Assembly: GCA_021927905.1 (NCBI GenBank)
Contig: BLLK01000022.1
Coordinates: 3,286,001-3,350,000, forward strand
DNA length: 64,000 nucleotides
DNA from: Chaetoceros tenuissimus
Taxonomy: Eukaryota; Bacillariophyta; Thalassiosirophyceae; Chaetocerotales; Chaetocerotaceae
Direction of reading: 5' to 3'
Shown: piece by piece, positions 1 through 20,752 of the stretch
Layout of the letters: every line of letters starts with the position of its first letter
How positions within the stretch are numbered: position 1 is the first letter of the stretch
Notes under the pieces: model-generated
Seen by the model: the letters and a program-made list of their open reading frames with translations, nothing else
Database searches by the model: none
Told to the model about the DNA's origin: nothing
Translations under genes and position numbers: made by a program

Positions 1-20
1 GAAAGGAGTTCATTTGATTC

Positions 21-2513: not shown

Positions 2514-2954
2514 GTAAAAGCTTTGATACGAAGAAGAAAAGGCTGCAAGAGTTATTCCCTCTGCGAGAATTATGATACTAAAATTTATACACTTTATAAA
2601 GTCTGATATCGATTGTGAATTATTCTTCGTGTTGCCTTGAATTTCATTTCAATATTTAATTTTATGTAATTTAGCCCATGTATGAAATGTCTTTGTCAGA
2701 TATTTTCAATTCAGTCTACTACAACATAATATAACCGTACATACTTACAAAACAGGAAAGCCAGGAAGTATCTTGTGCACCACAAACACAACGTTACATA
2801 CGAGAGAGTATTGTGAGAGTTTCACAAAAAGTAACATAGATACAATTACTCTCGATCCTGACAGCTTCTTACTGTAGCTCATTTTAGTTGAGTTCATTTC
2901 TGAAAGATAACATTAGCTAGTCTTTCTTATTAATTCGGGTGTGGATTCACAACA
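2514..2954. other. Intergenic, transporter 3' end to MYND gene promoter
   Basis: This AT-rich 441-bp spacer holds no open frame that I trust. It must contain the 3' UTR of the transporter and the promoter of the next gene. I see no repeat shared with the rest of the window. Confidence 0.5.
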
Positions 2955-5900
2955 ATGATGAGCCCTCATGAAAATGAAGAGCAGCCGCAGAAAAATGTCG
3001 AAGCAAATGAAAGCGAGCACAGCTGCTCAGAAATACTAATAAAACTTCGAGTTCGCAATCAAGAACTCCAATCTATAATAGAAAAGAAGGATTCTTTAGC
3101 TGTTCTTCCAGCTTCCATAGGTGGTATAATTCAAGAATGTATCTTGAATATTTTTAGCATGTATCAAGAAGCCCTTCGAGTTTCCGATGCGCAGAGTACA
3201 AGTCTTTCTGAAGAGCAAGATATAAATCTTGATAAGGAAAGTAGCAACATATATGTCCAAGGTCAACAGGTCCAGAAACTGCATGAAAAGCTAGCTCATC
3301 ATTACGACACTTTTACGAGAAAGTCTTCTAATGATGACTTGAATACAGGCGGTAGTTCCTTATCAAGTGCACTAGATAAACCAATACGAGCTTCAAATGA
3401 AATTCAAGATCGAATAAAAGTTATACTAGAATGCTATGAAAAGAGCTTTGCTGAAATAGAGAAATCCGTGTGCAAATTTTTACATGGTTTGAATGATAAA
3501 TCTACTCTATCAGAACTTGAGTCTATATTTTCAATATTCCCAAAGTCCTTTCAACAAGAATGTCGAGGAGAAATGCCTATTCAATCCTGCGTACAATCAA
3601 TAAAGTCTGTGAAATGGCTACCAGAATTATTGAAATGTACTTTCCCTAATCAAGATGAAAATGAGAAGAAGCAGATTTTGAATGAAATTAGAATATTTGG
3701 CTCCAAAGCTATTCTAGATGTGAAATGTTTGAAACTAGGAGAGAATGGAATCATGCGACGGTTTCATCCTACAAAGATGCAAGAATTGACGAAAGAAGAT
3801 CTCAGCTATACTTTGTTGGAATATTTATTTGTTTCAAAACCGATTTTATTTGACGCAGATGAAACTTTCATTGCGACGCACGAAATGGATTACGATAATG
3901 TTTATGTTGGGGTAATTCAAGATTTATATGAGAAAGAATATGTTTCACGAAATGATCTCCAGCGTATCTTTTCATCTATTGGAGGAGTAATGAGCCGAGA
4001 TAAAGAGCGACGATATGGAAGAAGAATAAAGTTCTTGTGGAATACTGTTCGAATCAAACATCATGAGAATGAAACTACATTTAATGATTTACTTGAAGTG
4101 TCGACTTTGACAGCAAATGGAAATGCAGACTGGTTGCAAAAGTCTATCGAGAATCCAAACAAAATATATAGAATGTACAAAATGAGAGAGAGGCGAAGAA
4201 GAGAAATGAATTCGTCTTTGTCAAAAGCAAAATTGCCGAAACAGAAGAAACCAAAGATGCTTGATAATGTATCTCCTAACTCTGCAAATGCCATGGATGT
4301 AAGCGAACTCACAAAACTATCTCCAGCGAAATCGAGTACTAGTAATAAAGTGTCAAGACCACAGTGCTCTAGAAGTCAATGCACAAATATTAGAAATCTC
4401 AGGAAGTGCTTAGGCTGCAATATTGCGAAATATTGTTCCCAAAAGTGCCAAGTAGATGATTGGATATTTCACCAACAGTTTTGTGTCGGTAAACAAGACG
4501 CTACAAAGGGGTCATCAGAGGCTGGGAATATACATAAAGATTCGAATCAAAAAGTATCCAACATAACTCCACTGGACGAAGGCACGCAAATTGAGAAGAG
4601 GACTACAGATAACGCATCGGCGATTCATTCAAAATCTAAAGCAGTCTCTACTCATAATACTTCTCGCGTACACAGCACTTTAGCTTCAAATAATGGGACA
4701 GGGAAGACAATGCCTTCTAAAGCAGCCAATAAAGTATCGCTTTCCCAAAAGCAGCAATCCCAACAAAAGTCAATGAATGGTACTACTTTTTCTGCAGCCC
4801 ATATGAACAGCAATACTAGAATAGGTCAACATCAACCCAGTGTTGTCGGTACAAACATAATGAAAAGTACAATACAATGTTCATATCCTCCCTGTCAGAT
4901 TGTAAATGGACTTATGAAGTGCGGAGGTTGTAACATTGCATCTTATTGTAGCAGAAACTGTCAAACGTCTCACTGGCCAATGCATCAAAAGACATGTTTA
5001 TTGAGGCAACACGAAGCAAGACGAAATAATGCATCCACGCAACAACTGCAGCAAACACAAACTAAAACACAGATTCCGACCCAGCAACAAAATTCTTTGC
5101 AACGATCTTATCCTCAGTATCATCAGCAACACCAACGACCGTACCAGCAACCAGTTCAACCATATCAGAATTGGAATATGCAACAGCAGCAACATTTTGT
5201 TTCCAATACATCTCTTCATAGATCTTACCAACAACAGCAACAGTGGCGTCAGTCTATTCCTTTGAATACCAACAATGGAATCCAACTGCCAGATAATCAT
5301 ACTCGAACAGTCCAAAGAACATCAAGAACACATTTGAACAAAGGAGTCAATTCTAAGACAACATCCAATACGAAAAAAGCTCCGAATAATAAGCGTGCTT
5401 CAAATGAAGCGCCTTTGAAGCGTAAATCAAGTACTGAAAGTGAATCTATTCAAAAGAAATCTAGACTGGAAACAAATGAAACATCATCTCTTGTTGGCAA
5501 CCGCAAAACAACTAACCAAACTCAATCTGACCTCTTGAGCATCACAAGATCCACATTCTCGGATATAGACTTGACAAAATATGGAAAATACTTTTCTTAC
5601 ATTGGTGACTTTATTCTAAAAGATTTCATTGATGAAGAAACAAATGAATCAAGCACATTTAGAGGTCAAATTGAATATATCTATATGGGTCATGCAAGTG
5701 CCGATAGCAAAAAGAAAGAGCTTTTGTTTCACGTACAATACTCTGATGGTGATACAGAGGATTTGACATTAGATGAGGTTCAAGGTAAGTCGAAACTCGT
5801 TATCTAAAAGAAACTTCCATGTTGTCGACCGCAGCTAATCGTGCTATTCATAGACTTTAAAAATGACTACAATACAAGAGGAGATTGTACTCAAAATAAT

Positions 5901-6302
5901 GATAATGTTGAAAATGATTTGATTGAGAATGAAGACAGCAAAGATGTTGAAGTTGATCAAGATTTATTTCAAGCAATTCAAACAGCAACCAAAGTAGCAG
6001 TTGATAAGAGGAAGTCATTATCGAAGGCGAATAAAGAGAATCAACCATCGAATATAGATATCCCTGCACTTCCTCGAACAGAAACTTGGGAAGATGAAGA
6101 TGACGACGAGGATGAAGTTGATAATGAAAACAATGGTGAAGGGAGCAATGTATATTTTGACTATTCCGATCTCAGTCAAGACGAAGATGATTCGCAAGAA
6201 GATGATGATGGTGTTGTGGCACCAAATGTCTACGACGATGAAGGAGTGAGCGACTACAATGATGATGGAGGTAACGAATCTGAAGAAGAAAGTTTTACAT
6301 AG
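2955..6302 (+). CDS. Double MYND zinc-finger protein with C-terminal Tudor-like domain and acidic tail (two exons)
   Basis: I read this as join(2955..5784, 5854..6302), 1092 residues. The unspliced frame stops just after a G|GTAAGT donor. Joining it to the TAG|AC acceptor at 5853/5854 restores frame (phase 1) and adds an acidic tail rich in D and E. Two MYND zinc fingers (C-x4-C variant first pair, then C-x2-C, C-x3-C, H-x3-C) lie at about residues 470-509 and 642-680. A Gln-rich and basic low-complexity stretch follows at about 690-850. A beta-barrel-like segment ending S-D-G-D-T-E-D-L-T-L-D-E-V (about 890-944) matches the 'EDGD' domain of the small neighbouring genes. MYND fingers usually bind proline-rich partners and Tudor-like barrels often bind methylated histones, so a nuclear regulatory role is plausible but inferred. 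The N-terminal 460 residues are not recognised. The tail exon recurs, broken, after two other genes of the array. Confidence 0.75.
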
Positions 6303-6379
6303 ATACAATTTGTGAATATAATTCTTATGCAATGAATCAAGTTTATATGAAGATATTTGATAGAAAGTTGTTTTAAATT

Positions 6380-7228
6380 TTAGATTTGTACTTGTCCTTG
6401 CACAACCTCTCCCATCCTTTCCAATACATATCTCTTGATAAGTCCGACTTCATCAATTTCAGAGTAAGGATTCGCTGCAAGGTATTGCGACGGAGTGATA
6501 CCAATGCTATTTGGAAGTTTCATGGCTCGTACACCATGGTCCTTCATATATCCGTAAACTTGTTCCCTGTCAGGATTGTCAGAAGAACAGATTCGGTGCA
6601 AAGCAAGCCCGTCACTATCATTGATGGACTTGATCCATGCGTTTACTTCGGTTGTGTCTGAAACTGAATCATAGTAACCATGTTCATTGGTTTCAAATGT
6701 AGAAATTTTAATCAATGCCGTATCAGCAATTACATTGTAACCAAGTTGAGTGTGCGGAGGAATACTTAGGATGATCAACTTTCTACAACCATGAAATGCT
6801 TCATTGTCAATCTCTCTACATGATGGAGGAATATATATTGAAGTCAGAGAATAACAGCCAAAAAATACAGTGATTCCAATATACTCGAGATTTCTTGAGA
6901 GTCTGACAAAGTCCAGACTCTTGCATCCCTGGAAAGCACTCTCTTCAATTCTCTGTACTGAATCAGTCATGATGACAACCTTGATATTCCTACAATAATA
7001 AAAAGTATATTCAGGAATCACTTCCACTCCGGGAAGAACTATAATGACTTCCCAAGATTGTCTCTCCTTATAATCGTAGATAAGAAGTTCACCATCATAC
7101 CAATCCCCTTCATATAGTTTCTCTCCGTTGTAAAAGAGAGTTTTCTTCCCTCGATAATTTCGGACTCCCGGTCCCAACGCTACAATCTTGTCCCATTCAG
7201 CCTGGGTGGGATATCTTCGTAGCTTCAT
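6380..7228 (-). CDS. BspA-type leucine-rich-repeat protein with ankyrin-like C-terminus (array copy 1)
   Basis: This is a 282-residue intronless gene. The N-terminal module (Y-P-T-Q-A-E-W, G-P-G-V-R, K-T-L-F-Y-N-G-E) is followed by about five BspA/LRR_5-type repeats of roughly 23 residues (pattern I-P-x-x-T-F-x-x-C-x-N-I-K, I-x-x-x-A-F-x-x-C). An ankyrin-like unit comes next (A-L-H-R-I-C-S-S, G-I-T-P-S-Q-Y-L-A-A-N-P-Y) and then the conserved terminus R-Y-V-L-E-R-M-G-E-V-V. There is no signal peptide or membrane segment, so it is probably intracellular. BspA-type repeats are protein-interaction surfaces; no enzymatic function is visible. It converges on the MYND gene (78-bp gap) and is divergent from the EDGD gene at 7542. 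Nine other intact relatives lie in this window. Confidence 0.85.
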   Translation of the reverse strand: MKLRRYPTQAEWDKIVALGPGVRNYRGKKTLFYNGEKLYEGDWYDGELLIYDYKERQSWEVIIVLPGVEVIPEYTFYYCRNIKVVIMTDSVQRIEESAFQGCKSLDFVRLSRNLEYIGITVFFGCYSLTSIYIPPSCREIDNEAFHGCRKLIILSIPPHTQLGYNVIADTALIKISTFETNEHGYYDSVSDTTEVNAWIKSINDSDGLALHRICSSDNPDREQVYGYMKDHGVRAMKLPNSIGITPSQYLAANPYSEIDEVGLIKRYVLERMGEVVQGQVQI

Positions 7229-7541
7229 CTGGTAAGGAAAGTGGTAAAGAAAGGTGATATGTTATTACATCTGCTGGAAATGAAAGTAATGCTTGATGAT
7301 TTTTGAACGGTTCCAATTTCTGTGGCCGCCGTCTGGCCGGCAGTCCGGCAGTGAAAAGGTTCGTTCGTCATTGTTGACACATGAAGTGTCAAAGTAGGCC
7401 ATTTCCATCAACCTCACACTTCTATCCCAAAAAAGTATCTTTTGAAAAAGAAAGGGTTGTTTTGGTGTATGCAAATGTTTCTGTATCTTTTACATCTTGA
7501 ATGGTTATTGTTTCGAGTAATTATCTACATATATTCAACAA
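7229..7541. promoter_or_regulatory. Shared bidirectional promoter block (copy 1) between LRR and EDGD genes
   Basis: This spacer between two divergent start codons contains a block at about 7363-7443 that recurs in the same position in three other divergent LRR/EDGD pairs. Its parts are a GTTCGTCATTGTTGACACAT core, an inverted TGTCAA partner, a TAGGCCATTTC box, a CCTCAC plus pyrimidine stretch, and AAAAAAGTATCTTTT nearest the plus-strand gene. The order of parts is the same in every copy. A promoter role is inferred from position and conservation. Confidence 0.6.
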
Positions 7542-7808
7542 ATGGAACAACCAGCAGTAGCCGAGGAGGTAACATCTTCAACAATAGCTCAAACTACAGC
7601 AGATGAAGAACTTGAACTCTTTTTCTGCCAAGACAATTGCTCAAGATTTGAGACGCCATTTGTAGGTGAGGTTGCAGTAGTCCCTGCAAAAGGATCCAGA
7701 TATTATAGAATCACATATAAAGATGGAGATGAAGAAGATCTAACCTACACAACAGTTAATAAGCATTGTGTAGTCTACTGTCAACCATCAGAGATCAGAG
7801 ATCGGTGA
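7542..7808 (+). CDS. Truncated EDGD (Tudor-like) domain protein (array copy 1)
   Basis: The 88-residue product starts with the family N-terminus M-E-Q-P-A-V-A-E-E-V and the acidic linker D-E-E-L-E-L-F, then a single Tudor-like barrel (F-V-G-E-V, Y-Y-R-I-T-Y-K-D-G-D-E-E-D-L-T-Y). The full-length relative at 16947 continues for more than 400 residues, so this copy is cut short right after its first domain. A short direct repeat (cagagat twice, near 7790) sits at the break. It is divergent from the LRR gene at 6380-7228. It may be a pseudogene or a stand-alone domain gene; no expression evidence can be had from sequence. Confidence 0.55.
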   Translation: MEQPAVAEEVTSSTIAQTTADEELELFFCQDNCSRFETPFVGEVAVVPAKGSRYYRITYKDGDEEDLTYTTVNKHCVVYCQPSEIRDR

Positions 7809-8366
7809 ATAGAGGGACTATGATCATAATTCATTCCTGATCCATTCGTCGAAGATTTACTCCGAACGAATTAGTCTCGACTTCTATCGACGAAAACAGA
7901 TTTTAATCAAGATCCTCATGTTTGCATCAAGATAAAAAGAAATATCGTCAATTTTTGGACGTGTCAAAGTGCTAATATTCACTCTTGTAGATGAGCCATT
8001 GAAGATATATATGTAGTATTGGACATTGCCGAGTTATGAAGAATTTGGATACAAGGTAATACATGGAGCGTAAGAGTATCAATTCCTAATTTTCAAGAAG
8101 ATATCAAAGAAAAACATTGGCAAGCCCACAAAATTCTCTAGGCCATTTTTAGTCTTGAGAAGTTGCAGATGAAATGGGACACTGTTCTTTTTGCTTCTTT
8201 TTTTGTTCCTTTGGCGCCAAAAGTTTCACAACCAACAGCAGTCTATCTAGATATGAAGGCATACTTTTGGAGAACTATACCTGATAAAGGAAGATATTTG
8301 AGAGAGCTAACAATTGTGTGCAACTAGTAGCATCTACTGGCTACTTGGATATCAAAGATAGCTACG
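7809..8366. other. Intergenic, no recognised content
   Basis: This 558-bp stretch follows the truncated EDGD gene and precedes a MYND gene. It lacks the second EDGD domain and the tail-exon block that follow other copies. I see no gene, RNA or repeat in it. Confidence 0.4.
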
Positions 8367-9653
8367 ATGGGGAAGAAAGGAAAGCGAAGCAATAAGAATG
8401 ATGCTAGGAAAGAAGCAGAAAAGAGTAAGTGTCGTTCTTGGATGATCTTTTATCTACTGAAGATTCTACGTATGATTATTTGTATCTTTTCAAAACACTC
8501 AAGTTCCTTCTTAAAAGTTCTCAAGGAGAGTGACAAGCTCGTAGACGGAGCGCTCGACGATATGATGGAGGATATGTTCTCAAAAGGTATCAATCGATAT
8601 AGAGAGGCTATTCGACTTTTAGAATCAAAGAAGGAATTGATGGTGTATACTAGAGGTAGATGCATAATTGCATACTATTTACTCATGTATCATGAGTACA
8701 AAAGACGGAATTACAAGGAAGCAATCGATTGCTACAACAAACTCATGGCACACTCTGTAGGTGCTAATTCAAAATTTATAGGCATCGTCTCGCTGTATTA
8801 TCAGCTGATCATGTTGAGAAACAGCAGTCAAGAGTGCCAACTTTCGGATTTCATTCATAACATTACACTTGCAAATGGCACCATGACTTCTACAGATATT
8901 TGGAATATTTGTATTGGAGCTATATCCGCATTTAGGGCTCATAAGCTATTTGATTCTGCAATTGGACTGGAATTGACGTGTGGGTCTCTAGTGCAAAGTC
9001 CACACCTAAGCAAGATTTCTCTAGCGTTGACATATCTCGAGCAGTATAGAGTAGAATTCCGCCAGAGATCACAAATGAGAAAGGACGATATCCGGAGAAT
9101 CATTAGCCTCATGGACTCACTTGTGACGGAGAAACCACCATTTGAGGGTTACGCTTACTTTGACTACTGCTTAGTACTTGCACAGTGTTACTATCTTACG
9201 AGTACTCAAACTGCCCAAGAAGAAAAGAGAACTACAAGAGCTTCAAAATTTGTTGAACAGTTTCTCTCTGCATTAACAGACGAAGATGGAAGCAAAATAG
9301 CACAGGATAGATGTTTCACATGTGATCAAGCAGTCACATCCGATGAGGTGCAATTTGTTTGCAGTGGCTGTCGGGTAGCTTGCTACTGTAGCATCAACCA
9401 TCAGCGAGCGACTTGGAAGAGGGAGGCAGTGCAAGGAACACGTATTGGCCATGAGATTCTTTGTCCTTTATACAAGGCCTTCCGAAAGTATAAACTTCAA
9501 GAAGTAAGTAAAGATAGAGACAAAGAGAAAGAAGCAAAGGCGAAAAGACGCTTGGAAAAGGAATGTGTAAAGTTTCTAGCGGATGGATTAGGCTTGAAGA
9601 ACAAATGCTTTCCTCGTGAATACTGTGATAGCGCTTCATCAGTCTTTGATTAG
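8367..9653 (+). CDS. MYND zinc-finger protein, probably with one short intron
   Basis: The frame is open over 428 codons. Residues about 20-50 (a hydrophobic stretch after A-R-K-E-A-E-K) look like a retained intron: a GTAAGT donor at 8425 and an AG at 8516-8517 would remove 93 bp in frame and give about 397 residues. The middle is helical and TPR-like (Y-x-E-A-I-x-x-x-x-S, Y-K-E-A-I-D-C-Y-N-K-L). A MYND finger lies near the C-terminus (C-F-T-C-D, C-S-G-C, C-Y-C-S, ending H-E-I-L-C), with an unusual N-H in place of the usual C in the fifth ligand region, followed by a charged helix. It resembles the two MYND genes at 18870-22091 in overall plan. Function is unknown; the MYND finger points to protein binding. 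Confidence 0.7.
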   Translation: MGKKGKRSNKNDARKEAEKSKCRSWMIFYLLKILRMIICIFSKHSSSFLKVLKESDKLVDGALDDMMEDMFSKGINRYREAIRLLESKKELMVYTRGRCIIAYYLLMYHEYKRRNYKEAIDCYNKLMAHSVGANSKFIGIVSLYYQLIMLRNSSQECQLSDFIHNITLANGTMTSTDIWNICIGAISAFRAHKLFDSAIGLELTCGSLVQSPHLSKISLALTYLEQYRVEFRQRSQMRKDDIRRIISLMDSLVTEKPPFEGYAYFDYCLVLAQCYYLTSTQTAQEEKRTTRASKFVEQFLSALTDEDGSKIAQDRCFTCDQAVTSDEVQFVCSGCRVACYCSINHQRATWKREAVQGTRIGHEILCPLYKAFRKYKLQEVSKDRDKEKEAKAKRRLEKECVKFLADGLGLKNKCFPREYCDSASSVFD

Positions 9654-10048
9654 TCAAAAATATGTTTACATCACTCAGCATTTGAAACATAGTACAATTG
9701 CATCGGTATCGCAGTAGGCATAATCGGATCCATCATTGATACGTAAAATCATGTAAAGAATATTTTGTTCTTCTGTTTCTAAGGTAGATAAAGATTAGAT
9801 AGATAATAGTGTCTCGATCGGAATCCTAAGCAAAGCATTTTCTGTATTCTTACTCATCAGCTTTGATGTAAAATCTATAGCTCTCGTGTATGAAGAGCAA
9901 TGCAAACCATGGCGATTCTTGTCAGCTTCCAGATGAATATTTAGAAAGGGTTTAATTTTGCTTATTTACCATGTTTACCATGAAATTACTTTTATTAATG
10001 CATGTTCTAAAATAGACGTTGTTATAAATTTTTGATTTTTTACTGTAG
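9654..10048. other. Intergenic between convergent MYND and LRR genes
   Basis: These 395 bp carry the two 3' ends. Only the part close to 10020-10048 resembles the AT-rich end block of other LRR copies. I see no gene in it. Confidence 0.45.
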
Positions 10049-10867
10049 TTACGCAACCTCTCCCATCCTTTCCAAAACATATCGCTTGACAAGTTTGCCT
10101 TCTTCAATCTCGGTATAAGGATTCGCTGCAAGGTATTGTGACGGAGTAATACCAATTCTATTTGGACGTTTCATAGTGACAAGACCATGGTCCTTCACGT
10201 ATTGGTAGACTTGTTCCATGTCTGGATCATGAGAGCAGCAAAGTCGATGAAAAGCATACGCATCTTCATTGTTGATGGACTTGACCCACTGGACTACTTC
10301 CTCATCGGCGTAGCTATAGCGACCATCTTCTTCATCTGCTTCAAGTAGAGAGTTGGCAATCAAAGCTGTTCCATGGAAAACTCTTTCACCAAGTTCAGTA
10401 GTTTGAGACAAACCCAAAATAATCAAACATTTGCAACTACAAAATGCCTCATCATTGATCTCTGTGCAGGATGGTGGAATAAAGATTGAAGACAGAGATT
10501 CACAGTCATAAAATGAACTGTGTCCAATAAATTGGAGATTTCTTGAAAGTCTAATGAAAACAAGACTATAGCATTCCAAGAAAGCCGACCATTCAATCCT
10601 CTTGACAGAATCGGCCATAATCACTGTCTTGACATTCTTACAACTGTAGAAAGTCAATTTAGGAATCACCTCCACTCCAGGAAAAATAATGATGACTTCC
10701 CATGTTCGTCTTTCTTTCCAATCGTAAACAAGAGGGCCACCATCCCAAAGGCATAGTTCCTCTCCGTTGTAAAAGAGAGTCTTCTTTTCTTTGTGCATTC
10801 GTACTCCCGGACCTAATGCTACTATCTTCTCCCATTCCGCATTGGTAGGATATCTTGGGAGCTTCAT
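10049..10867 (-). CDS. BspA-type leucine-rich-repeat protein (array copy 2)
   Basis: The 272-residue intronless paralogue of the gene at 6380-7228 has the same order of parts: N-terminal Y-P-T-N-A-E-W and G-P-G-V-R-M module, about five BspA-type LRRs, ankyrin-like Y-A-F-H-R-L-C-C-S, G-I-T-P-S-Q-Y-L-A-A-N-P-Y, and the closing R-Y-V-L-E-R-M-G-E-V. It is the minus-strand half of a divergent pair with the EDGD gene at 11140 and ends facing the MYND gene at 8367. Key positions of the family are kept, so it appears functional. Confidence 0.85.
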   Translation of the reverse strand: MKLPRYPTNAEWEKIVALGPGVRMHKEKKTLFYNGEELCLWDGGPLVYDWKERRTWEVIIIFPGVEVIPKLTFYSCKNVKTVIMADSVKRIEWSAFLECYSLVFIRLSRNLQFIGHSSFYDCESLSSIFIPPSCTEINDEAFCSCKCLIILGLSQTTELGERVFHGTALIANSLLEADEEDGRYSYADEEVVQWVKSINNEDAYAFHRLCCSHDPDMEQVYQYVKDHGLVTMKRPNRIGITPSQYLAANPYTEIEEGKLVKRYVLERMGEVA

Positions 10868-11139
10868 TTTGTAAGAGGATTGATAAGGACAGCTGATGAT
10901 ACTTCTGCTGGAAGTCGGCGTGGAGAGTGGAGAGCGTGGAAAAGCCGTTCGTCATTGTTGACACATTGCAGTGTCAAATCAGGCCATTTCAAAAAGATCT
11001 CACCTCTCACTGTTCTCCTCAAAAAAGTATCTTTTGCTGCTTGAAAAAGAATAGTGAACGTTTTGGTGTATACAAATGTATCTTTCACATCTTAAAGGAG
11101 CATAAGTTTCAGTGTAATAATCTTCAATATATTCAACAA
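10868..11139. promoter_or_regulatory. Shared bidirectional promoter block (copy 2)
   Basis: The conserved block is at about 10947-11035 with the same ordered parts as copy 1: GTTCGTCATTGTTGACACAT, TGTCAA, AGGCCATTTC, CCTCTCAC, AAAAAAGTATCTTTT. It lies between the start codons of an LRR gene and an EDGD gene. Confidence 0.6.
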
Positions 11140-11526
11140 ATGGAACAGCCGGCCATAGCCGAAGAGGTGACATCTTCGACAGGAGCTCCAGCCACAGCAG
11201 ATGAAGAACTCGAACTCTTTATCAACTCACATAGTATTGCTCCTCGAGATTTTGACTCGTCGCCATTTGTAGGAGAAGTAACAGTAGTCCCCGCACAAGG
11301 ATTCAGATATTATATAATCACATATGAAGATGGAGATCAAGAAGATCTAACCTATATTGAAGTCAAGCTTTATGCTCGCTGTTACCAGAGATCGATGGAG
11401 AGAGGAAATGTCCCCAAACAAAAGAAGCATGAGTTTGGATTTTCTGAAAGGTTTCCTGTAGGAACCAAGATTTTGAAACATTTCCCGCGGAGAGATCACG
11501 AAGAAGCTTTTCAAAGGCAAAGATGA
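11140..11526 (+). CDS. Truncated EDGD (Tudor-like) protein (array copy 2), frameshifted in second domain
   Basis: I start at the conserved M-E-Q-P-A-I-A-E-E-V; the frame is open further upstream but that part is promoter in the other copies. The 128-residue product has one complete EDGD barrel (F-V-G-E-V, Y-E-D-G-D-Q-E-D-L-T-Y) and the opening of a second (F-P-V-G-T-K-I-L-K), then leaves the family frame and stops. Eight bases past the stop, in another frame, is the 26-codon acidic tail known from exon 2 of the MYND gene at 2955. The same break is present in the copy at 15247, so it predates their duplication. It may be non-functional. Confidence 0.5.
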   Translation: MEQPAIAEEVTSSTGAPATADEELELFINSHSIAPRDFDSSPFVGEVTVVPAQGFRYYIITYEDGDQEDLTYIEVKLYARCYQRSMERGNVPKQKKHEFGFSERFPVGTKILKHFPRRDHEEAFQRQR

Positions 11527-11690
11527 GGGCACAGAATATCTATGACAACGAAGAAGTATGCGACTGCAATGATGATGGAGTCGAGAAATCTGAAGAAGAA
11601 AGTTTTACATAGATATAGTTTTGTAGATATAATTCTTATACAATGAATCAGGTTTATATGAAGATATTAGAGAAAAAGTTATTATAAATA
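11527..11690 (+). repeat. Duplicated tail exon and 3' end block (copy in array unit 2)
   Basis: At 11535-11612 an out-of-frame 78-bp coding relic ends E-S-E-E-E-S-F-T-stop, matching 6225-6302 codon for codon in length. The AT-rich 3' sequence that follows (TTTATATGAAGATAT near 11652) also matches the stretch after 6302. It is a segmental copy of the MYND gene's last exon end. Confidence 0.7.
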
Positions 11691-12524
11691 TTAGATTTGT
11701 GCGTGTTCTTGCACAACCACCTCTCCCATCATTTCCAAAACATATCTCTTGAGAAATTTTCCTTCTTCAATTTTAAAGTAAGGATTCGCTGCAAGGTATT
11801 GTGACGGAGTAATGCCAATCTTGTTTGGAAGTTTCATGGCTCGTAGACCATGAGCCTTCACATATCGATAGATTTCGTCTGGATCATGAGAGCAGCAAAG
11901 ATGATGAAGAGCGTATGCTTCTTCATTGGTGATAGACTTGACCCATTGAACTACTGCTTCCTCGTCGTGCTCATTATATTCACCATCTTCATCAGTTTCA
12001 AATGGAGATACTCTAAGTAATTCTGTATCTTGAAAGACATCTTGACCAAGTTGTACATTGTGAGGCAATCCCAAAATCAACAACTTTTTGCAAGCAAAAA
12101 ATGCACCCCAATCAATCTCTCTACATGATGGTGGAATAAATATTGAAGTCAGAAATCCACAGTCACAGAATGCCCTCTCTCCAATAAACTCGAGATTAGT
12201 TGAAAGCTTGACAAACTGGAGACCAAAACATTGCATGAAAGCCTCTCTTTCAATTCTCTTGACTGTATCCGCCATAACTACCGTCTTGATATTTCTACAA
12301 TCATAGAAAGTACAGCATGGAATCATTTCAACTCCGGGAAGAACAATCATGACTTGCCAAGTGTTTCTTTCTTCTTCATCATAGATTAGAGAAGCAAATC
12401 CACCGAACCGAAGTTTCTCTCCGTTGTAAAAGAGAGTCTTCTTTCCTCTAAACATACGGACTCCCGGTCCCAATGCTACAATCTCATCCCATTCCGCCTG
12501 GGTAGGATATTTTAGTAGCTTCAT
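11691..12524 (-). CDS. BspA-type leucine-rich-repeat protein (array copy 3)
   Basis: I chose the start at 12524 (M-K-L-L-K-Y-P-T-Q-A-E-W), which all minus-strand relatives share, although the frame is open to 12626; this gives 277 residues. It has the usual N-terminal module, about five BspA-type LRRs, the ankyrin-like Y-A-L-H-H-L-C-C-S and G-I-T-P-S-Q-Y-L-A-A-N-P-Y region, and closing R-Y-V-L-E-M-M-G-E-V. It faces the truncated EDGD gene at its 3' end. At its 5' end it is divergent from another LRR gene at 12766 instead of an EDGD gene. Confidence 0.85.
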   Translation of the reverse strand: MKLLKYPTQAEWDEIVALGPGVRMFRGKKTLFYNGEKLRFGGFASLIYDEEERNTWQVMIVLPGVEMIPCCTFYDCRNIKTVVMADTVKRIEREAFMQCFGLQFVKLSTNLEFIGERAFCDCGFLTSIFIPPSCREIDWGAFFACKKLLILGLPHNVQLGQDVFQDTELLRVSPFETDEDGEYNEHDEEAVVQWVKSITNEEAYALHHLCCSHDPDEIYRYVKAHGLRAMKLPNKIGITPSQYLAANPYFKIEEGKFLKRYVLEMMGEVVVQEHAQI

Positions 12525-12765
12525 CTGGTGAGGGAAGTGGTAAGGAAAGTTATAATGACACTTCTGCTGGAAATGAAAGTAATGCTTGTAGCTTGCTCTG
12601 TGCCTTGTGCCTTGATGCTTTTTCACCGTTTCAAATTTCAGCCGTCATTGTGAAAAGAAATATCCCTATTCGGTTGGTACACATCAATTTTCATTCGCTC
12701 TCGCGTCGCTCCCCATCCTATTTGAAACTTGATCGACTACTATAGGTACTACTTTCAAATCAAAG

Positions 12766-13503
12766 ATGAGAGTTCAGACTGAAGAATGGCAAAGCTTCGT
12801 TCCAGGAGTACGAATGTACAAAGGCAAAATGACTCTCTTTTGGAATGGAGAGGAGTTGTATGATTATGAGAATGGAGATTGGCTTGTCTACAGTGAAGAA
12901 GAGAGAGAAACTTGGCAAGTCGTCATTTTCTTGCCTGGAGTGGAAGTGATTCCTGATCGTACTTTCTGGAAATGTGATAATCTCGAGACTGTCATTATGA
13001 GTGATACTGTAGAAAGAATCGAAAAAAGTGCTTTCAAAGGTTGCAAAAGTCTCACATTTGTTCAGCTCTCGAGAAATTTGGAATACATTGCAGAGATGGT
13101 ATTCTATCGGTGTGTTTCTCTGACTTCAATGTTCATTCCTCCATCTTGTAGAGAGATTCGTGAAAAGGCATTTTTCTGTTGTGAAAAGTTGATCATCTTT
13201 AGTGTTCCTCAACACACTGAAATTGGTAGAAATGTCTTTGTTCGTACGGCATTGCTCGAAGCTTCTCCATTCTTTTCTGGAATGTATGAGAACTATGAGG
13301 AGGTAAATGATTGGGTCAAGAACGGACTTCTTCAGGGTGATGAATATGCTCTACATCGTGCTTGCTCCTCTTTTCATCCTTTAGATGAAGTCATTTTTGA
13401 AATTGTTAGAAGACAAGGTCTACAAGCTTTCAAGAAACCGGATAGCATTGGTATCACTCCTGTAGAATATCTAGAGCACAATCCTTTTGCTGATGTCGAC
13501 TAG
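12766..13503 (+). CDS. BspA-type leucine-rich-repeat protein of the MRVQ subtype, stop codon before conserved C-terminus
   Basis: This 245-residue member of the second subtype begins M-R-V-Q-T-E-E-W and lacks the Y-P-T-Q lead of the MKL subtype. The LRRs and ankyrin-like part (Y-A-L-H-R-A-C-S-S, G-I-T-P-V-E-Y-L) are intact. It ends at TAG 13501-13503, where the relative at 42301 has Gln. The next 17 in-frame codons read L-K-L-M-K-R-Y-I-L-D-V-M-G-E-I-V-S and then TGA at 13555-13557, which is exactly the family C-terminus. The TAG is therefore a recent nonsense change, a read-through site, or a sequencing error. The gene is divergent from the copy at 11691-12524. Confidence 0.75.
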   Translation: MRVQTEEWQSFVPGVRMYKGKMTLFWNGEELYDYENGDWLVYSEEERETWQVVIFLPGVEVIPDRTFWKCDNLETVIMSDTVERIEKSAFKGCKSLTFVQLSRNLEYIAEMVFYRCVSLTSMFIPPSCREIREKAFFCCEKLIIFSVPQHTEIGRNVFVRTALLEASPFFSGMYENYEEVNDWVKNGLLQGDEYALHRACSSFHPLDEVIFEIVRRQGLQAFKKPDSIGITPVEYLEHNPFADVD

Positions 13504-13774
13504 CTAAAACTCATGAAACGATACATTCTAGATGTAATGGGTGAAATTGTGAGCTGAGCTTGGTTCCAGTATCTCGACTATTCTATAGATTGAGATAAAA
13601 CTAAGGAGTGATTACGTAGTATTATTTCACGCGTTTAGATTCAAAATTAATATCTGTGAGCATTGAAAGATGTGTTCGTCAATTGAACAATTCATAATTT
13701 GCAATTTTTCCATTGATTCAACACAAAACCATCCATAGAAAGATGGTGATGGTGAGCATCTGATATATAGTGCG

Positions 13775-14908
13775 TTAAGGTAGTACATTCCTAATACTTG
13801 CACTCAAAGACTTTGAAGGTGATGATTTTTCTTCCTCGGCTTCTTGGTGTTTTATCTTCAGGCTAGCAAACTCGTTTTTTACAACCTGTAGTTCTTTTGA
13901 ACGTTCAATGTTCTCATGCAAGAGCAAGTGGTTCTTTTCGGTCAATTCTTTGATCTCGAGCTTGGCAGCTTCCAATTCAGATGCAAGGCGAAGAATTGTA
14001 CTCTCTGCAGCGTCCAATTCAGTCGTGGTCTTTGGTATGATGTTATGGGTGTTTGACGCAACCTCTCCCATCATTTCCAAAATATATCTCTTGATAAGTT
14101 TACCTTCTTCAATCTCGGAGTAAGGATTCGCTGCAAGGTATTGTGACGGAGTGATACCAATATCATTTGGAAGATTCATAGTAGCAAGACCATTATCCTT
14201 CAAATATTGGTAGACCTCTTCCGTGTCTGGATCATCAGAGCAGCAAAGACGTTGAAGAGCGTATGCATGATCATTGTTGATGAATTTGATCCATCGAATT
14301 ACTGTTTCCTCGCAGTCGTACCATTCATATTCACCATCTTCATTAACATAGTAACCATCTTCATTTACTTCGAACGGACATGATTCTTCCAATGTTTTAA
14401 GAAATGCTGTATCTTCAAAAACATCTTCACCAAGTTGTACATGCGGAGGTATTCCCAAAATAATCAATCGTGTACAACTATCAAAAGCCTGTTCATCAAT
14501 TTTAATACATGATGGTGGAATAAAGATTGAAGTAAGTGTGCGACATCTTTGGAATGCCCACCCTCCAATCCGTTCCAGATTTCTTGAGAACTTGACAAAC
14601 TCGAGTTTAAAGCAGCAAAAGAAAGCCTTCTCTTTAATTCTTTGTACAGAATCGGCCATGATAACTTTCTTGACATTCAAACAACCACGGAAAGTCCATC
14701 CAGGAATCTCTTTCACTCCTGGCAATATAATAATGACTTGCCAAGATTGTCTCTCTTCTACACTATAGACAAGAAACTCATCAATGATATCGTAAAGGCC
14801 CTCTCCATTATAAAATAGAGTTTTCATTCCATTGTACATCCGTACTCCAGGCCCCAACGCTACAATCTTCTCCCATTCCGCCTGCGTAGGATATCTTGGG
14901 AGCTTCAT
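13775..14908 (-). CDS. BspA-type leucine-rich-repeat protein with added C-terminal coiled coil (array copy 4)
   Basis: At 377 residues this is about 100 longer than its relatives. The first 280 or so follow the family plan (Y-P-T-Q-A-E-W-E-K, five BspA-type LRRs, ankyrin-like G-I-T-P-S-Q-Y-L-A-A-N-P-Y, closing R-Y-I-L-E-M-M-G-E-V). Instead of a stop the frame continues into a heptad-rich helix (about residues 290-360: L-D-A-A-E-S-T-I-L, L-E-A-A-K-L-E-I-K-E-L) with a Ser-rich end. The coiled coil suggests gain of an oligomerisation segment by fusion or stop loss. It is divergent from the EDGD gene at 15247 and convergent with the LRR gene at 12766. Confidence 0.85.
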   Translation of the reverse strand: MKLPRYPTQAEWEKIVALGPGVRMYNGMKTLFYNGEGLYDIIDEFLVYSVEERQSWQVIIILPGVKEIPGWTFRGCLNVKKVIMADSVQRIKEKAFFCCFKLEFVKFSRNLERIGGWAFQRCRTLTSIFIPPSCIKIDEQAFDSCTRLIILGIPPHVQLGEDVFEDTAFLKTLEESCPFEVNEDGYYVNEDGEYEWYDCEETVIRWIKFINNDHAYALQRLCCSDDPDTEEVYQYLKDNGLATMNLPNDIGITPSQYLAANPYSEIEEGKLIKRYILEMMGEVASNTHNIIPKTTTELDAAESTILRLASELEAAKLEIKELTEKNHLLLHENIERSKELQVVKNEFASLKIKHQEAEEEKSSPSKSLSASIRNVLP

Positions 14909-15246
14909 CTGGTAAGAGAAGTGGTTAGGAAAGGTGATGACACTGCTGGAAATGAATAGTAGGTATTAGAATTATGCTGTTGATGACTTAGGAAGGGTGA
15001 TGCTTTTGAGAAGAAAAAGATCGGTTTATGTGTGACCGTTTGTGTGGAAAAAGCTTCGTTCGTCATTGTTGACACATGTTGAGTTGTCAACTGTCAAGTT
15101 AGGCCATTTCCAAAGATCTAACCTCTCACTTTTCTCAAAAAAGTATCTTTTACACGTAGTTTTGAGTCTTTGTTTGCAAATGCATCTGTATCTTTTATAT
15201 CAGATGGAAAATAGTTCAGCATCATCATCTACAATATATTCAACAA
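14909..15246. promoter_or_regulatory. Shared bidirectional promoter block (copy 3)
   Basis: The conserved block lies at about 15056-15150 with GTTCGTCATTGTTGACACAT, two TGTCAA elements, TTAGGCCATTTCC, CCTCTCAC and AAAAAAGTATCTTTT in the usual order. This copy carries an extra GTTGTCAA insert compared with the others. Confidence 0.6.
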
Positions 15247-15621
15247 ATGGAACAACCAGCAGTAGTTGAGGAGGTGCAGTCATCGGTGGCCCAAGCCGCA
15301 GCAGATGAAGAACTCGAACTCTTTATCGACTTAAACATTGCTCAAGATTTTGACTCGTCTCCATTTGTAGGAGAAGTAAGAGTAGTCCCTTCAAAAGGAT
15401 ACAAATATTACATAATCACATATGAAGATGGTGATGAAGAAGACCTTACCTATAATGAAGTCAAGCGTTATGCTGATTGCTGCCAGAGATCCATGGAGGG
15501 AGGAAATGTCCCAAAACAAAAAAAGGATGAGTTTGGATTTTCTGAAAAGTTTCCTGTAGGAACCAAGATTTTGAAAAATTTCCCGCAGAGAGAGTACGAA
15601 GCTTCCCAAAGACACAGATGA
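15247..15621 (+). CDS. Truncated EDGD (Tudor-like) protein (array copy 3), same frameshift as copy 2
   Basis: The 124-residue product starts M-E-Q-P-A-V-V-E-E-V and has one complete EDGD barrel (F-V-G-E-V, Y-E-D-G-D-E-E-D-L-T-Y-N-E-V). A second domain begins with F-P-V-G-T-K-I-L-K-N-F and then is lost by frameshift. Aligned by eye with the full-length gene at 16947, the bases tacgaagcttcccaaag are shared but are read one frame apart. The MYND-type acidic tail lies just downstream in yet another frame. Probably a decaying or shortened copy. Confidence 0.5.
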   Translation: MEQPAVVEEVQSSVAQAAADEELELFIDLNIAQDFDSSPFVGEVRVVPSKGYKYYIITYEDGDEEDLTYNEVKRYADCCQRSMEGGNVPKQKKDEFGFSEKFPVGTKILKNFPQREYEASQRHR

Positions 15622-15803
15622 GGGCACAGAATATATATGACGACGAAGGAGTATGCGACTACAACGATGGTGGAGTTGAGGAATCTGAAGAAGAAAGTTT
15701 TCCATAGATACAGTTTTGTTGATATAATTCTTATGCAATGAATTTAGTTTATATGAAGATATTTGATAAAAATTTCTTATAAATTTTGGATTTGTGCTTG
15801 TTC
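15622..15803 (+). repeat. Duplicated tail exon and 3' end block (copy in array unit 3)
   Basis: The segment 15630-15707 reads as the 26-codon acidic tail (N-I-Y-D-D-E-G-V-C-D-Y-N-D, closing E-E-E-S-F-P-stop), out of frame with the gene before it. It and the AT-rich 3' sequence after it match 6225-6302 and its flank. Length is identical in all three copies (78 bp). Confidence 0.7.
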
Positions 15804-16625
15804 TCACACAACCTCTCCCATCATTTCCAAAATATATTTCTTGACAAGTTTGCCTTCATCAATTTCTGAGTAAGGATTCACTGCAAGGTATTGCAAAGGA
15901 GTGATACCAATGCTATTAGGAAGTTTCATTACTCGTAAACCATGGTCCTTCACGTATCGGTAGACTTGTTCTGTGTCTGGATTGTCAGAAGAACAAATTC
16001 TGTGTAAAGCAAGCCCTTCGGCATCATTGATGGACTTGATCCATGTGCTGACTTCAGTAGTGTCTTCGTAGTGACCATACATACCATCGGTCTTAAATTT
16101 AGAAGCTTCAATCAATGCCGTACTAGCAATTACATTTGCACCAAGTTGAGTGTGTGGAGATATACTTAGGATGATCAACTCTTCGCAACCATCAAATACA
16201 TAGTTAGCAATCTCTCGACACGATGGCGGGATAAAGATTGAAGTCAGAGAATCACAGTCACGGAATGCCCACTCTCCAATGTACTCGAGAGCTCTTGAGA
16301 GTTTGATGAAAACGAGACAGATACAATACCCAAAAGCATTATCTTCAATTCTCTTGACACCAGAGTCGGGCATGATGACAGTCTTGATAATCGTACAACT
16401 ATAGAAACTCAATTTAGGAATCACTTCAACTCCAGGCAATACGATGATGACTTGCCACGATCGTCTTTCTTGGCAATCGTAAATAAGCCACTGTCTAGTA
16501 TCTTCATCATATAAACTGACTCCATTCCAAAACAGAGTTTTCATTCCATTGTACATTCGCACTCCAGGTCCCAACGCTACAATCTTCTCCCATTCCGCCT
16601 GCGTAGGATATCTTAGTAGCTTCAT
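15804..16625 (-). CDS. BspA-type leucine-rich-repeat protein (array copy 5)
   Basis: The 273-residue intronless member of the MKL subtype carries the N-terminal module (Y-P-T-Q-A-E-W-E-K-I-V-A, G-P-G-V-R-M-Y-N-G), BspA-type LRRs, ankyrin-like A-L-H-R-I-C-S-S, G-I-T-P-L-Q-Y-L-A-V-N-P-Y, and the end Y-I-L-E-M-M-G-E-V-V. Divergent from the full-length EDGD gene at 16947, it is the only LRR member of the array paired with an intact EDGD partner. Confidence 0.85.
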   Translation of the reverse strand: MKLLRYPTQAEWEKIVALGPGVRMYNGMKTLFWNGVSLYDEDTRQWLIYDCQERRSWQVIIVLPGVEVIPKLSFYSCTIIKTVIMPDSGVKRIEDNAFGYCICLVFIKLSRALEYIGEWAFRDCDSLTSIFIPPSCREIANYVFDGCEELIILSISPHTQLGANVIASTALIEASKFKTDGMYGHYEDTTEVSTWIKSINDAEGLALHRICSSDNPDTEQVYRYVKDHGLRVMKLPNSIGITPLQYLAVNPYSEIDEGKLVKKYILEMMGEVV

Positions 16626-16946
16626 CTGGAGAGGGAAGTGGTAAAGAAAGGTGATATGTTACATCTACTGGAAATGAAAGTAATGCTTGCTTTCTTTGAT
16701 GCTTTTTGAACGTTTCCAATTTCTGTGGCCGCGTCTGGCCCGTGGAATGAAAAGGTGTTGTTCGTCATTGTTGACACATGTTGATGTCAAATTAGGCCAT
16801 TTCCATCAACCTCACTTTTCTCACAAAAAAAAGTATCTTCTGCTTTTCTTAAAAAAGAATAGTGAGTGTAGATGATGTGATGCAAATGTATCTTTTACAT
16901 CTTGAAGAAATACAGTTCAGTATAATCATCCACATATATTGAACAA
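16626..16946. promoter_or_regulatory. Shared bidirectional promoter block (copy 4)
   Basis: The block lies at about 16760-16840: GTTCGTCATTGTTGACACAT, TGTCAA, TTAGGCCATTTCC, CCTCAC plus pyrimidines, AAAAAAAAGTATCTTCT. The LRR-side flank (CATCTGGAGAGGGAAGTGGT, CTGGAAATGAAAGTAATGCT) also matches the other copies. Confidence 0.6.
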
Positions 16947-18657
16947 ATGGAACAACCAACAGTAGCTGAGAAGGTGACATCTTCAACAGTAGCTCAAACT
17001 ACAGCAGATGAAGAACTTGAACTCTTTATCGGCCAATACATTGCTCAGGATTTTGACTCGCCATTTGAAGGTGAAATAACAGTAGTCCCTGCAAAGGGAT
17101 TCAAATATTATAGAGTCACATATGAAGATGGTGATGCAGAAGATCTTACCTACAATCAAGTCAAGCGTTATGCTGGCTACCATAGATCGTTTCAGGGAGG
17201 AAGTGCCTCGAAACGAAAGAAGCATGAGTTTGGATTTTATGAAAAGTTCCCTGTAGGAACTAAGATTTTGAAAGATTTTTTGCGTACCTTTGCAGGAAAG
17301 ATTACGAAGCTTCCCAAAGGTGAAGGTGAGAAATATACAGTGACTTATGACTCAGATGGTTCAGTTTGGAAAGTAACAAAGGATGAAGCAATGGAAATGG
17401 TGGCAAAGTATAAGGCATGGATTGATCATTCCGCAAGACTCAAGAAAGAAGAGGAAGAAGCTAATGCAGTTACAATGAGTGAGACTAGCTCGGCTACAGC
17501 TTCTTTATCAGATATGCAACCATTGATTCCACCATCTTCATCCGAAGAAGAAAACGTGGAGGAGGAAGAGGTACAGCTTGTGAGTGATACGGCACCAAGT
17601 GGTCTATCACGAGTGAAATTGGAAATGTTTGGGAAGGCAACTGCTAGAAGAGTTAGTAGCAATTACTTGGAACGAAAACAAAGAATTGCAGCTAGAATGC
17701 AAGCGTTGAAGGATCCCAATGGGGCACCAAGAAAGGTGTTTCGTCGAGGTTGTCACAAAGCTTGTCTCACTCAAGTTTTAGGAGGAAGTGGCACACATCC
17801 AGCCCCAATTGTAAGGGTAGTTCCAACTGATATTTTTGAAGATGGAATCAATCCATTTATTCAGAAAGGGCAATACTACTTTGCGGGTAGATCGGATTGG
17901 AATCCTTGGACACCAGGCTATCCTGGAGACGTTGGCTTTATCGGTTCACAATTTCTATCTTATCAAGAATACGTGGAAACTCATGGTGTAGGTCCGGTTG
18001 ATCGTAGTAAACAAAAGCTGTTTCACTGTTTCTTGGATTGTGCTAAAAAGAAGTATCTACCACATTATCTTGGACCTAATGCAAGAGGAAAACAACTCTA
18101 TCTTGGTCGGTTCCGCGCAGTTCCTGATGATGAGGAAGAAGTAAATATTATCGAGAAGATATTCAAATTTAGTGCATTGGAATGGGACTCACAATGCACA
18201 TATGCCGAATGGCAAGTGAGACATAATAAAGGCATTGATATGAGTGGCAGAAAAGATAAAAAGTATGACATGCTAAATACAGATCTAGCAATGGAAGTTT
18301 ATGCTGAAGCGGCAAAAACTAAAGCTGAAAATGAAAAGGAAGGGCTTTGGGAGTCGTTGAGAATTGAGAAGAAGAAGGAACGAGCTTGGGTTGAAATGCT
18401 ACTCGATAACGAGTACACTTTGTCAATTCGACCTGTCGAGTTTGTTGACTATGATGAAAGGTAAGTGAGGACTGCACAAACGAACAAAAATGATTTTTTG
18501 TGAACAATACTTTCCAGTACAAGTAATGTTTGGCGTGGAACAATCTATCAAATATGCCTCTAACCTTCTCTTTCTTAGCCTATACAATAAACTTGTGGAA
18601 ATTGGAGCAGACAATGGTGAGGTTTCTTTGAATAAAGACGAGCTTGGTCCATTGTAA
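16947..18657 (+). CDS. Full-length EDGD (tandem Tudor-like) protein, two exons
   Basis: I read this as join(16947..18460, 18579..18657), 530 residues. The first exon ends at a clean AG|GTAAGT. The acceptor TTTCTTAG at 18578 restores frame (phase 2) and adds a 26-residue end finishing D-E-L-G-P-L. The N-terminus M-E-Q-P-T-V-A-E-K-V leads to a first barrel (F-E-G-E-I, Y-E-D-G-D-A-E-D-L-T-Y) and a second (F-A-G-K-I, Y-T-V-T-Y-D-S-D-G-S). Then comes an acidic Ser-rich linker, and a 250-residue C-terminal domain with many aromatic residues (R-S-D-W-N-P-W-T-P-G-Y, L-Y-L-G-R-F-R-A-V-P) that I do not recognise. Tandem Tudor-like domains usually read methylated residues, so chromatin association is a fair guess and no more. 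It is the only complete member of this family here. Confidence 0.75.
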
Positions 18658-18869
18658 ATTCTCCCTCAAAGCAAGAATACGACATCTTTGTTTTCATATA
18701 AATACACCGTTAAATTATATACTATTGAATGATTTTCTCATTCTCTTTCTACAACTCTTTCTTTTCATCTAATAGAACTAAATAGTAAAACAGACCCACT
18801 GAAGACGAACGAAAGAATACTGAGCAATACGGTGTTCTTCCAAAAATTCCCCTAGGAGCCAGGTGAGCC

Positions 18870-20292: not shown

Positions 20293-20752
20293 TGTAACTT
20301 ATTTCTAGGTTTGGTGTGGTTGCGATACGTAGTCTTCTTTTAGTTGCTTTCTCTTGATGGTATGGTCTACACTTTCTACTCTCTTTATAAAGTTCAAAGT
20401 CGCTATTTATAATGTGTGGAATTGCAGAGACAAGAGATGATTACTTTTTGATATTGGCAAAAGATAGATGAAGGATGGAAAATGGAAAACGCTCGCTCGT
20501 AGATTGTGTTCCAATGTCGTTCGTATCATTTTCCATTTTAGTACGATGACAGGTGTCAGCTGTCATTGTTAAAATACACCGTTAAATTATATGCTACTTT
20601 GATTGATCTTCATGTTCTATTTCTGCACTCCTTTCTCCTGATCTAATAGAATAAAGTAGTAGAAAACCCACTTCTGCTTCTACACAGCACAAACAAATGA
20701 AAATTGAGCAATACGGTGTTCTTCCTATATTCCCCTAAATGACGGCTATGCC

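Follow-up and report, generated by a model that had tools for sequence, protein, structure and literature searches.

We analysed a 64,000-nucleotide stretch of the Chaetoceros tenuissimus genome (C16:3286001-3350000, C labels denoting contigs; hereafter the window), in which minus-strand leucine-rich repeat (LRR) genes are interleaved with plus-strand genes and gene fragments that are related to an EDGD gene or carry MYND fingers. This array is probably the product of tandem duplication with passenger EDGD fragments, and its LRR genes probably encode a short intracellular recognition module driven to change at five positions per repeat, the scaffold being conserved. Five LRR open reading frames (ORFs) starting with MKL were confirmed, all intact and all on the minus strand: LRR1 at 6380-7228 and LRR2 at 10049-10867 (both by ORF, Pfam and alignment), LRR3 at 11691-12524 (ORF, Pfam and DNA comparison), LRR4 at 13775-14908 (ORF and Pfam) and LRR5 at 15804-16625 (ORF and alignment); LRR4 has a C-terminal extension of ~100 amino acids (aa) that looks coiled-coil-like by eye. 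A sixth LRR gene, of an MRVQ subtype and with an in-frame TAG near the C-terminus, lies on the plus strand at 12766-13503 (ORF, Pfam, genome search and alignment). The five of these six proteins that were scanned belong to the BspA-type family LRR_5 (72.0-83.3 bits against a cut-off of 27.7), and LRR5, omitted from the scan, is 71% identical to LRR1. Searching the genome (41,027,912 bases, 68 contigs) with the LRR query gave at least 138 matches (138 of 530 candidates scored). The family is very probably the same as the published C. tenuissimus group OG0000, which has 385 paralogues, 376 of them with the LRR5 domain (IPR026906); the available text on that group gives counts only, and gene arrangement, selection and fusions are added here (PMC8613185).

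The ratio of nonsynonymous to synonymous substitution rates (dN/dS, or omega when fitted by codon model) was 0.27-0.46 over the LRR genes as a whole, in the 21 pairings of seven genes, namely the five MKL genes together with the plus-strand copy and a copy at 38543. Within the 23-residue repeat, five registers were variable, namely 6, 7, 10, 11 and 13 in the segment xxAFxxCx, that is, the two residues preceding AF, the two that separate F from C and the one following C. Selection was assessed on 61 distinct sequences from 88 ORF matches (the window and fetched loci, with loci L001, L003 and L004 omitted), a sample of the 385 published paralogues, and pairs were limited to a gene-wide proportion of synonymous differences (pS) of 0.01-0.5. 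When a codon model was fitted to the 61 sequences by maximum likelihood, the five registers (20 codons) had an omega of 2.14 (twice the log-likelihood difference, 2dL, 39.8), the other 72 LRR codons 0.26 and the 179 flanking codons 0.32. By repeat unit, the registers gave 1.62 in unit 1 (p 0.03), 2.86 in unit 2, 3.52 in unit 3 and 1.46 in unit 4 (p 0.11), and the five array copies alone gave 5.72 (p 0.0007) against 0.25. E, S, Y, D, R, G and K are the most frequent residues at these registers, and W makes up 5.4%. The concave-strand positions 16, 17 and 19 had a grouped omega of 0.35 and single values of 0.92, 0.17 and 0.22, respectively; register 16 is unconstrained by itself. From these codon comparisons, selection seems to drive change at five fixed positions of the LRR repeats, as it does in recognition proteins.

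An alternative is that relaxed constraint on exposed residues, or conversion between paralogous genes, accounts for the variable positions, rather than selection for new binding. Relaxation would be expected to bring omega near 1, yet the values were above 1 in both halves of a blind split, in which registers were picked on two repeat units and tested on the other two, each round yielding these five registers (omega 2.02 and 2.24), and under six other settings (a flank-only tree, three kappas and two frequency sets; 1.93-3.66). In 100 null simulations the maximum omega was 1.30 and the maximum 2dL 4.8, against 2.62 and 48.0 observed, and counts over 22 disjoint pairs, with a dN/dS of 1.43 at the registers (bootstrap 1.14-1.88), also exceeded 1.

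Several observations nevertheless weigh against selection for recognition, and some of them favour relaxation or conversion. Repeat units 1 and 4 are weak when taken alone. Of the 22 pairs, the youngest three (gene pS 0.10-0.15, all from a cluster on C43) showed no change at any of ~152 nonsynonymous sites at the registers. Two of these three lack synonymous change throughout the LRR block while their ends differ, so that recombination or conversion is likely in them and the pairs are mosaic; the third, with 6 synonymous and 3 replacement differences in the LRR block and none of them at the registers, speaks against steady selection. The other 19 of the 22 pairs are near saturation at the registers (proportion of nonsynonymous differences, pN, 0.45-0.70). 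In four copies fused to a P-loop domain, pN was 0.60 against a pS of 0.64 at the registers, and 0.11 against 0.53 elsewhere in the LRR. Recombination can also inflate tree-based omega. Most LRR receptors bind their ligands on the concave strand, and the variable registers lie off it. As for the passenger reading of the array, two EDGD fragments are constrained (see below), which leaves room for a partner role. Change at the registers may come in bursts or by exchange. Taking both sides together, we consider relaxation or conversion as the sole cause rather unlikely, though by no means negligible, and retain selection at the five registers as the preferred explanation. The C43 cluster itself (loci L035-L036, C43:143300-157700) comprises about 10 LRR genes on the same strand, where two of the three young pairs are near-identical in the LRR block and diverged at their ends.

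The predicted structure of LRR5 (mean predicted local distance difference test score, pLDDT, 71.9, with low values in the C-terminal parts) had TpLRR (6mlx) as its best match in the PDB (E 1.1e-6), with a template modelling score of 0.38-0.49 that applies to the repeat part only; the fold is that of a BspA-like LRR protein. At the sequence level, LRR1 matched PDB entry 4fs7 (E 2e-38). Strands in the LRR5 model fall at registers 17-19 and the variable segment lies just before the strand. The five registers may form a ligand-contacting ridge.

No NTPase or Roc-COR match was found by Pfam in the five array LRR proteins scanned, and the array proteins do not qualify as LRR-ROCO proteins. Longer relatives carry such domains behind an N-terminal LRR_5 module, and the LRR module of the fused ORFs is 44-48% identical to LRR5 over 252-262 residues. 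Among six longer ORFs scanned, two contain a KAP_NTPase domain (L042, C43:385500-390800, 51.1 bits; L044, C43:124200-128200, 117.5 bits). A third (L043, C59:540000-546500) combines LRR_5 with ankyrin-like repeats and a Roc domain at 44.0 bits, over its cut-off, with COR-A (24.6 bits) and the ankyrin models below theirs; in the remaining three (L039, L040 and L041), the part scanned contained no NTPase match. The ORF of L039 (C43:432800-437200) extends, by eye, to a Walker-A-like stretch, and one of the KAP matches of a genome search falls at that place. That search gave four KAP NTPase matches, all on C43, three of which, including the one beside L039, lie in ORFs matching LRR hits in contig and length; the fourth is ~1.4 kb from the third and is perhaps its next exon. 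For COR-A there were 12 genome matches, of which four fall in ORFs that agree with an LRR_5 hit in contig and length. ROCO-like combinations of LRR_5 with Roc-COR were also seen at C59:529769, C58:822289 and C17:367553. NB-ARC and NACHT were found in none of the six longer relatives scanned (two KAP, one Roc), which are in this respect not of the NLR type. LRR-only proteins would work beside the relatives in which the module is fused to a KAP or Roc-COR NTPase, the latter acting as the signalling part. The LRR module together with these fusions is, judged by domain content, a candidate NLR-like toolkit. Plant and animal NLR receptors join sensor repeats to a P-loop NTPase and form large, fast-evolving families; the NTPases here are KAP or Roc-COR and stand behind an N-terminal sensor, and the array genes have no NTPase match.

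The closest comparison is with the brown algal LRR-ROCO genes, which encode candidate immune receptors and likewise are stramenopile genes with 23-residue LRRs, diversifying selection at fixed positions and a joined Roc-COR (PMC11378527). The brown algal repeats are of the LxxLxL type, with one repeat per shuffled exon, and their selected sites (14, 16, 18 and 19) lie on the concave face, whereas the diatom array has BspA-type repeats in single ORFs and its variable sites in xxAFxxCx, before the strand (PMC11378527). ROCO copies numbered at most 4 per species in the other SAR species searched there, diatoms included, as compared with the 12 COR-A matches in C. tenuissimus (PMC11378527). By this comparison the diatom family, a candidate intracellular recognition repertoire, is close in kind to the brown algal LRR-ROCO receptors but differs from them in its LRR type, in its variable surface and in having KAP fusions. 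Large families of BspA-like LRR proteins are also known in the protists Trichomonas vaginalis (PMC2843621) and Entamoeba (PMC6414313), and E. moshkovskii members are under diversifying selection (PMC6414313). Those proteins are discussed as surface or candidate extracellular proteins (PMC2843621, PMC6414313), whereas the diatom proteins have no secretion signal by eye and some of their relatives are fused to NTPases. In the diatom Seminavis robusta, LRR proteins make up a large share of the tandem duplicates, among other families, and one LRR family has been linked to high-temperature signalling; the expansions are tandem as here, and the available text reports neither family pairing nor site-level selection (PMC7335047).

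The means by which single-celled algae detect viruses, bacteria or mates intracellularly are, to our knowledge, largely open. An LRR family with several hundred members, change at five positions per repeat and a P-loop NTPase joined to some copies offers a candidate and a precise surface. As a tentative wider view, which we hold with clearly less confidence than the account of the array itself, C. tenuissimus may possess an innate recognition repertoire made up of several hundred short BspA-type LRR proteins inside the cell, whose hypervariable xxAFxxCx ridge lies off the concave face. Tandem duplication and gene conversion would reshuffle this repertoire, a few members of it would be wired to KAP or Roc-COR NTPases as NLR-like signal parts, and the array would be one small locus of it. 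Both the recognition role and the ridge geometry are inferred; the targets would probably be diatom viruses, bacteria or mates. The species is a virus-host system with a sequenced genome (strain NIES-3715; 41.0 Mb, 38.9% guanine and cytosine, GC) and RNA-sequencing data (DRA011082) (PMC8613185).

The arrangement of the array is most readily explained by repeated duplication of one unit. A first-pass annotation of this DNA had seen five minus-strand LRR genes alternating with plus-strand EDGD/MYND genes that share heads and tails between units. The layout was confirmed, but the partners are not equivalent genes: apart from the edge genes 2955 and 16947 and MYND gene 8370, which is inserted, they are fragments rather than full-length genes. 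The intact EDGD gene (16947-18464, plus strand) encodes 505 aa, and what had been called an EDGD barrel is a Pfam match to the PTM/DIR17-type Tudor domain (31.8 bits against a cut-off of 27.2); a second Tudor match is below cut-off and the C-terminal part has no Pfam match over cut-off. The ORFs at 7542-7808 (H1, 88 aa; identified by similarity search and pN/pS), 11140-11526 (H2, 128 aa) and 15247-15621 (H4, 124 aa), all on the plus strand, are truncated EDGD heads that lack the second Tudor-like part and the C-terminal part. H2 and H4 are Tudor-only ORFs whose Tudor domains passed the same cut-off (29.0 and 31.9 bits), H1 being omitted from the scan. The sharing of heads is real, except that unit 3 has no head, LRR3 retaining only the LRR-side part of the intergenic region, and has the plus-strand MRVQ gene there. 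The shared tails likewise exist, but they are the 3' flank of the LRR gene rather than gene tails, and the same sequence ends the reading frame of gene 2955, whose last part (from ~6218) recurs in front of LRR3 and LRR5.

The full unit order is LRR 3' flank, LRR gene, intergenic region and EDGD front. Self-comparison of the window gave 79% identity between 6218-7749 and 15623-17154 and 75% between 10936-12639 and 15044-16723, with further matches. Segments comprising the junction and the LRR 3' flank lie at 11528-11690 (LRR3), with the same left boundary as at 6218 and 15623, and at 15623-15803 (LRR5; self-comparison and alignment). In the junction alignment, H2 and H4 have a common 8-base gap relative to the EDGD gene and then pass into the flank that follows LRR1, both losing frame at the junction; the common gap and common exit suggest that the junction was made once and later copied. 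Synonymous divergence (dS) of LRR genes and heads increases together over the six unit pairs: 0.54 and about 0.27 for units 1-5, 0.66 and 0.38 for 2-4, 0.74 and 0.38 for 2-5, 0.78 and about 0.51 for 1-2, 0.87 and 0.48 for 4-5, and 0.90 and about 0.67 for 1-4, respectively, where head values given as about are corrected from pS. In the proposed course of events, one divergent unit, LRR(-)/intergenic/EDGD(+), situated between the MYND-Tudor gene and the full EDGD gene, would have been tandem-duplicated repeatedly. The breakpoints, one within EDGD and the other in the 3' flank of the LRR gene, are seen in the sequence, whereas the order of events is inferred. Each new copy comprises a whole LRR gene together with only the EDGD upstream region and the Tudor-bearing front, and the LRR gene is the component maintained in number. 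MYND gene 8370 and the plus-strand LRR gene would be insertions or rearrangements.

An assembly artefact, in which haplotypes of a repeat were collapsed or expanded, is conceivable in that the published assembly is haploid-merged and the genome has a heterozygosity of 1.56% (PMC8613185). Yet aligned unit pieces differ by ~20-32% in DNA and the five MKL genes have an LRR dS of 0.54-0.90, both far above allelic divergence, and the window contains no N; we regard such an artefact as scarcely credible.

Of the 14 matches obtained when the genome was searched with the EDGD protein, two are full length, namely EDGD itself and a copy at C38:992028-993518 with 70% identity; three are the array heads, and nine are partial (25-40% identity). 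A PDB sequence search with EDGD gave no match, its structure model (mean pLDDT 36.9) was not used, and among viral contigs 24 stretches fitted the EDGD pattern with none confirmed. The heads might be plain decaying pseudogene fragments without a product, as the loss of frame at the H2/H4 junction and the state of H1 would suggest, since H1 is shorter and its pN/pS against the intact EDGD gene is 0.85 (p 0.38, not significant). On the other hand, both the H2 and H4 ORFs are open with a pN/pS of 0.39 between them (Fisher p 0.0004), and H1 gave 0.65 against H2 (p 0.04) and 0.55 against H4 (p 0.007). The probability of a neutral head staying open is 0.08-0.24 without indels and 0.0008-0.07 with assumed indel rates. 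Decay of all heads has an appreciable chance, although one well short of even. Under the duplication account that we prefer, the EDGD partners would be passengers, one head decaying and two kept as constrained Tudor-only ORFs, and any function of the H2 and H4 ORFs would be separate from the LRR genes. The two ORFs and their upstream region seem, from their constraint, to be maintained, with no sign of LRR involvement.

The intergenic region between LRR1 and H1 (7229-7541) is similar in units 2, 4 and 5, the last copy lying between LRR5 and the intact EDGD gene (16626-16946; DNA comparison). Four units share identical blocks of 20, 10 and 13 bases. When the region is aligned, identity is 83% between units 1 and 5 (77% by BLAST) and 67-72% in the remaining five pairs; at the synonymous sites of the LRR genes, units 1 and 5 are 61% identical. 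A DNA search with the common intergenic region matched places in the array only. On its EDGD side, TGTCAAA and AAAAAGTATCTTTT each occur exactly in three of the four units, and both were also seen, by eye and with no chance control, upstream of the C38 EDGD paralogue, which has no LRR neighbour; because of that occurrence they look like EDGD promoter elements. A conserved 14-mer, GTCATTGTTGACAC, has five exact copies in the genome, four of them in the array, and its 19-mer form was not found in L001 with up to 3 mismatches allowed; the genome copy pattern and the absence from L001 rule it out as a general LRR or EDGD promoter element. A palindrome, TGACAC-N5-GTGTCA, was rejected as common to the units, with 2 matches at up to 2 mismatches against 2.8 expected and an exact form in unit 1 only.

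The first-pass annotation had proposed that the LRR and EDGD/MYND products act together, co-duplicated as recognition plus chromatin-type reader under one bidirectional promoter. The constrained H2 and H4 ORFs and the identical intergenic blocks are compatible with such a functional pair, as is a second tandem LRR(-)/MYND(+) pair on C38 (described below). The two families are, however, scattered in the genome. The C38 EDGD copy has no array LRR match within 9 kb (3.5-4 kb on each side), and its divergent neighbour looks unrelated. When 30 LRR loci were compared, all five array loci contained EDGD, head or MYND matches, and relatives of the array partners were found within ~1.5 kb at none of the 25 non-array loci (queries being the window's own proteins); no conserved LRR|EDGD pair was found at other loci of this genome, the one searched. 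Proximity was evaluated for 130 MYND places (merged from 150 rows) and 215 LRR places, with contig ends approximated and rows common to both LRR lists removed by hand; the lists cover 150 of 378 MYND candidates and, for LRR, 138 of 530 and 150 of 442. MYND places lay within 2 kb of an LRR place in 6 of 130 cases, against 2.8 expected when positions were rotated (p 0.09) and 3.5 when they were shifted locally (p 0.17), and the family of gene 8370 in 1 of 58 against 1.3 expected. A genome-wide rule of MYND-LRR association was accordingly rejected, as proximity did not exceed the shuffles. Within the array, moreover, the heads are incomplete, the third unit has none, and MYND is confined to one edge gene (2955) and one single-copy gene (8370).

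A functional pair is thus quite improbable. The shared upstream sequence, offered as a common promoter and a sign of pairing, is restricted to the array and contains elements that recur at an EDGD gene without an LRR neighbour, and the novelty claimed for the pair gives way to ordinary tandem duplication with passenger fragments. The proposal of a locus kept for rapid diversification, with the LRR proteins as the recognition part, fared better: site-specific diversifying selection was found, but it is family-wide and unlinked to the Tudor/MYND partners. The LRR5 and MYND domains are commoner in C. tenuissimus than in three other diatoms (PMC8613185). As both are expanded, a meeting of the two families is no surprise, and apparently paired families in this genome can come from tandem duplication alone.

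The second pair just mentioned belongs to L002 (C38:909500-919400), where a divergent LRR(-)/MYND(+) pair has been tandem-duplicated independently at 911-918 kb. Its MYND protein differs from the array MYND proteins and is TPR-like by eye; this cluster is a case of the same process as the array, not of the same pair.

The MYND genes of the array are of two kinds. The left-edge gene (2955-6302, plus strand; ORF and Pfam) has MYND fingers in two stretches (58.1 bits against a cut-off of 22.7) and a weak, EDGD-like Tudor match (21.9 bits, under the cut-off of 27.2), with a putative intron, placed by eye at ~5786-5852, followed by an acidic exon 2 to 6302. Its paralogue on C27 is 81% identical in DNA, with similarity only up to base 6142, and continues into a RING-like stretch, by eye. 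The single-copy gene 8370 (8370-9653, plus strand; ORF and Pfam) scored 21.7 bits for MYND, just under the cut-off, with a weak TPR_7 match (E 0.014), also below cut-off; its family is separate and dispersed, with 97 matches genome-wide.

The surroundings of the array contain further genes of these families. To the left of the window (L004, C16:3278001-3286000), large minus-strand MYND/Tudor-related genes adjoin the array and are partly similar to gene 2955 and to the EDGD head. To the right, at 18700-22105 and just outside it, two minus-strand genes that look MYND-like by eye stand in tandem, with 79% identity over 1.6 kb; the bigger ORF of one of them has no Pfam match. The GC content of the window, in 2-kb steps, is 0.35-0.42. 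A MULE-transposase-like ORF, just under the Pfam cut-off, occupies 31917-33566. The ORF at 35671-38433 encodes a 921-aa protein with a TIR-like stretch, by eye and without a Pfam match, followed by strong TPR repeats, and adjoins the MKL-containing LRR gene at 38543. Further along, at 50029-56364, a 2111-aa ORF contains several tandem LRR segments that are, by eye, near-identical.

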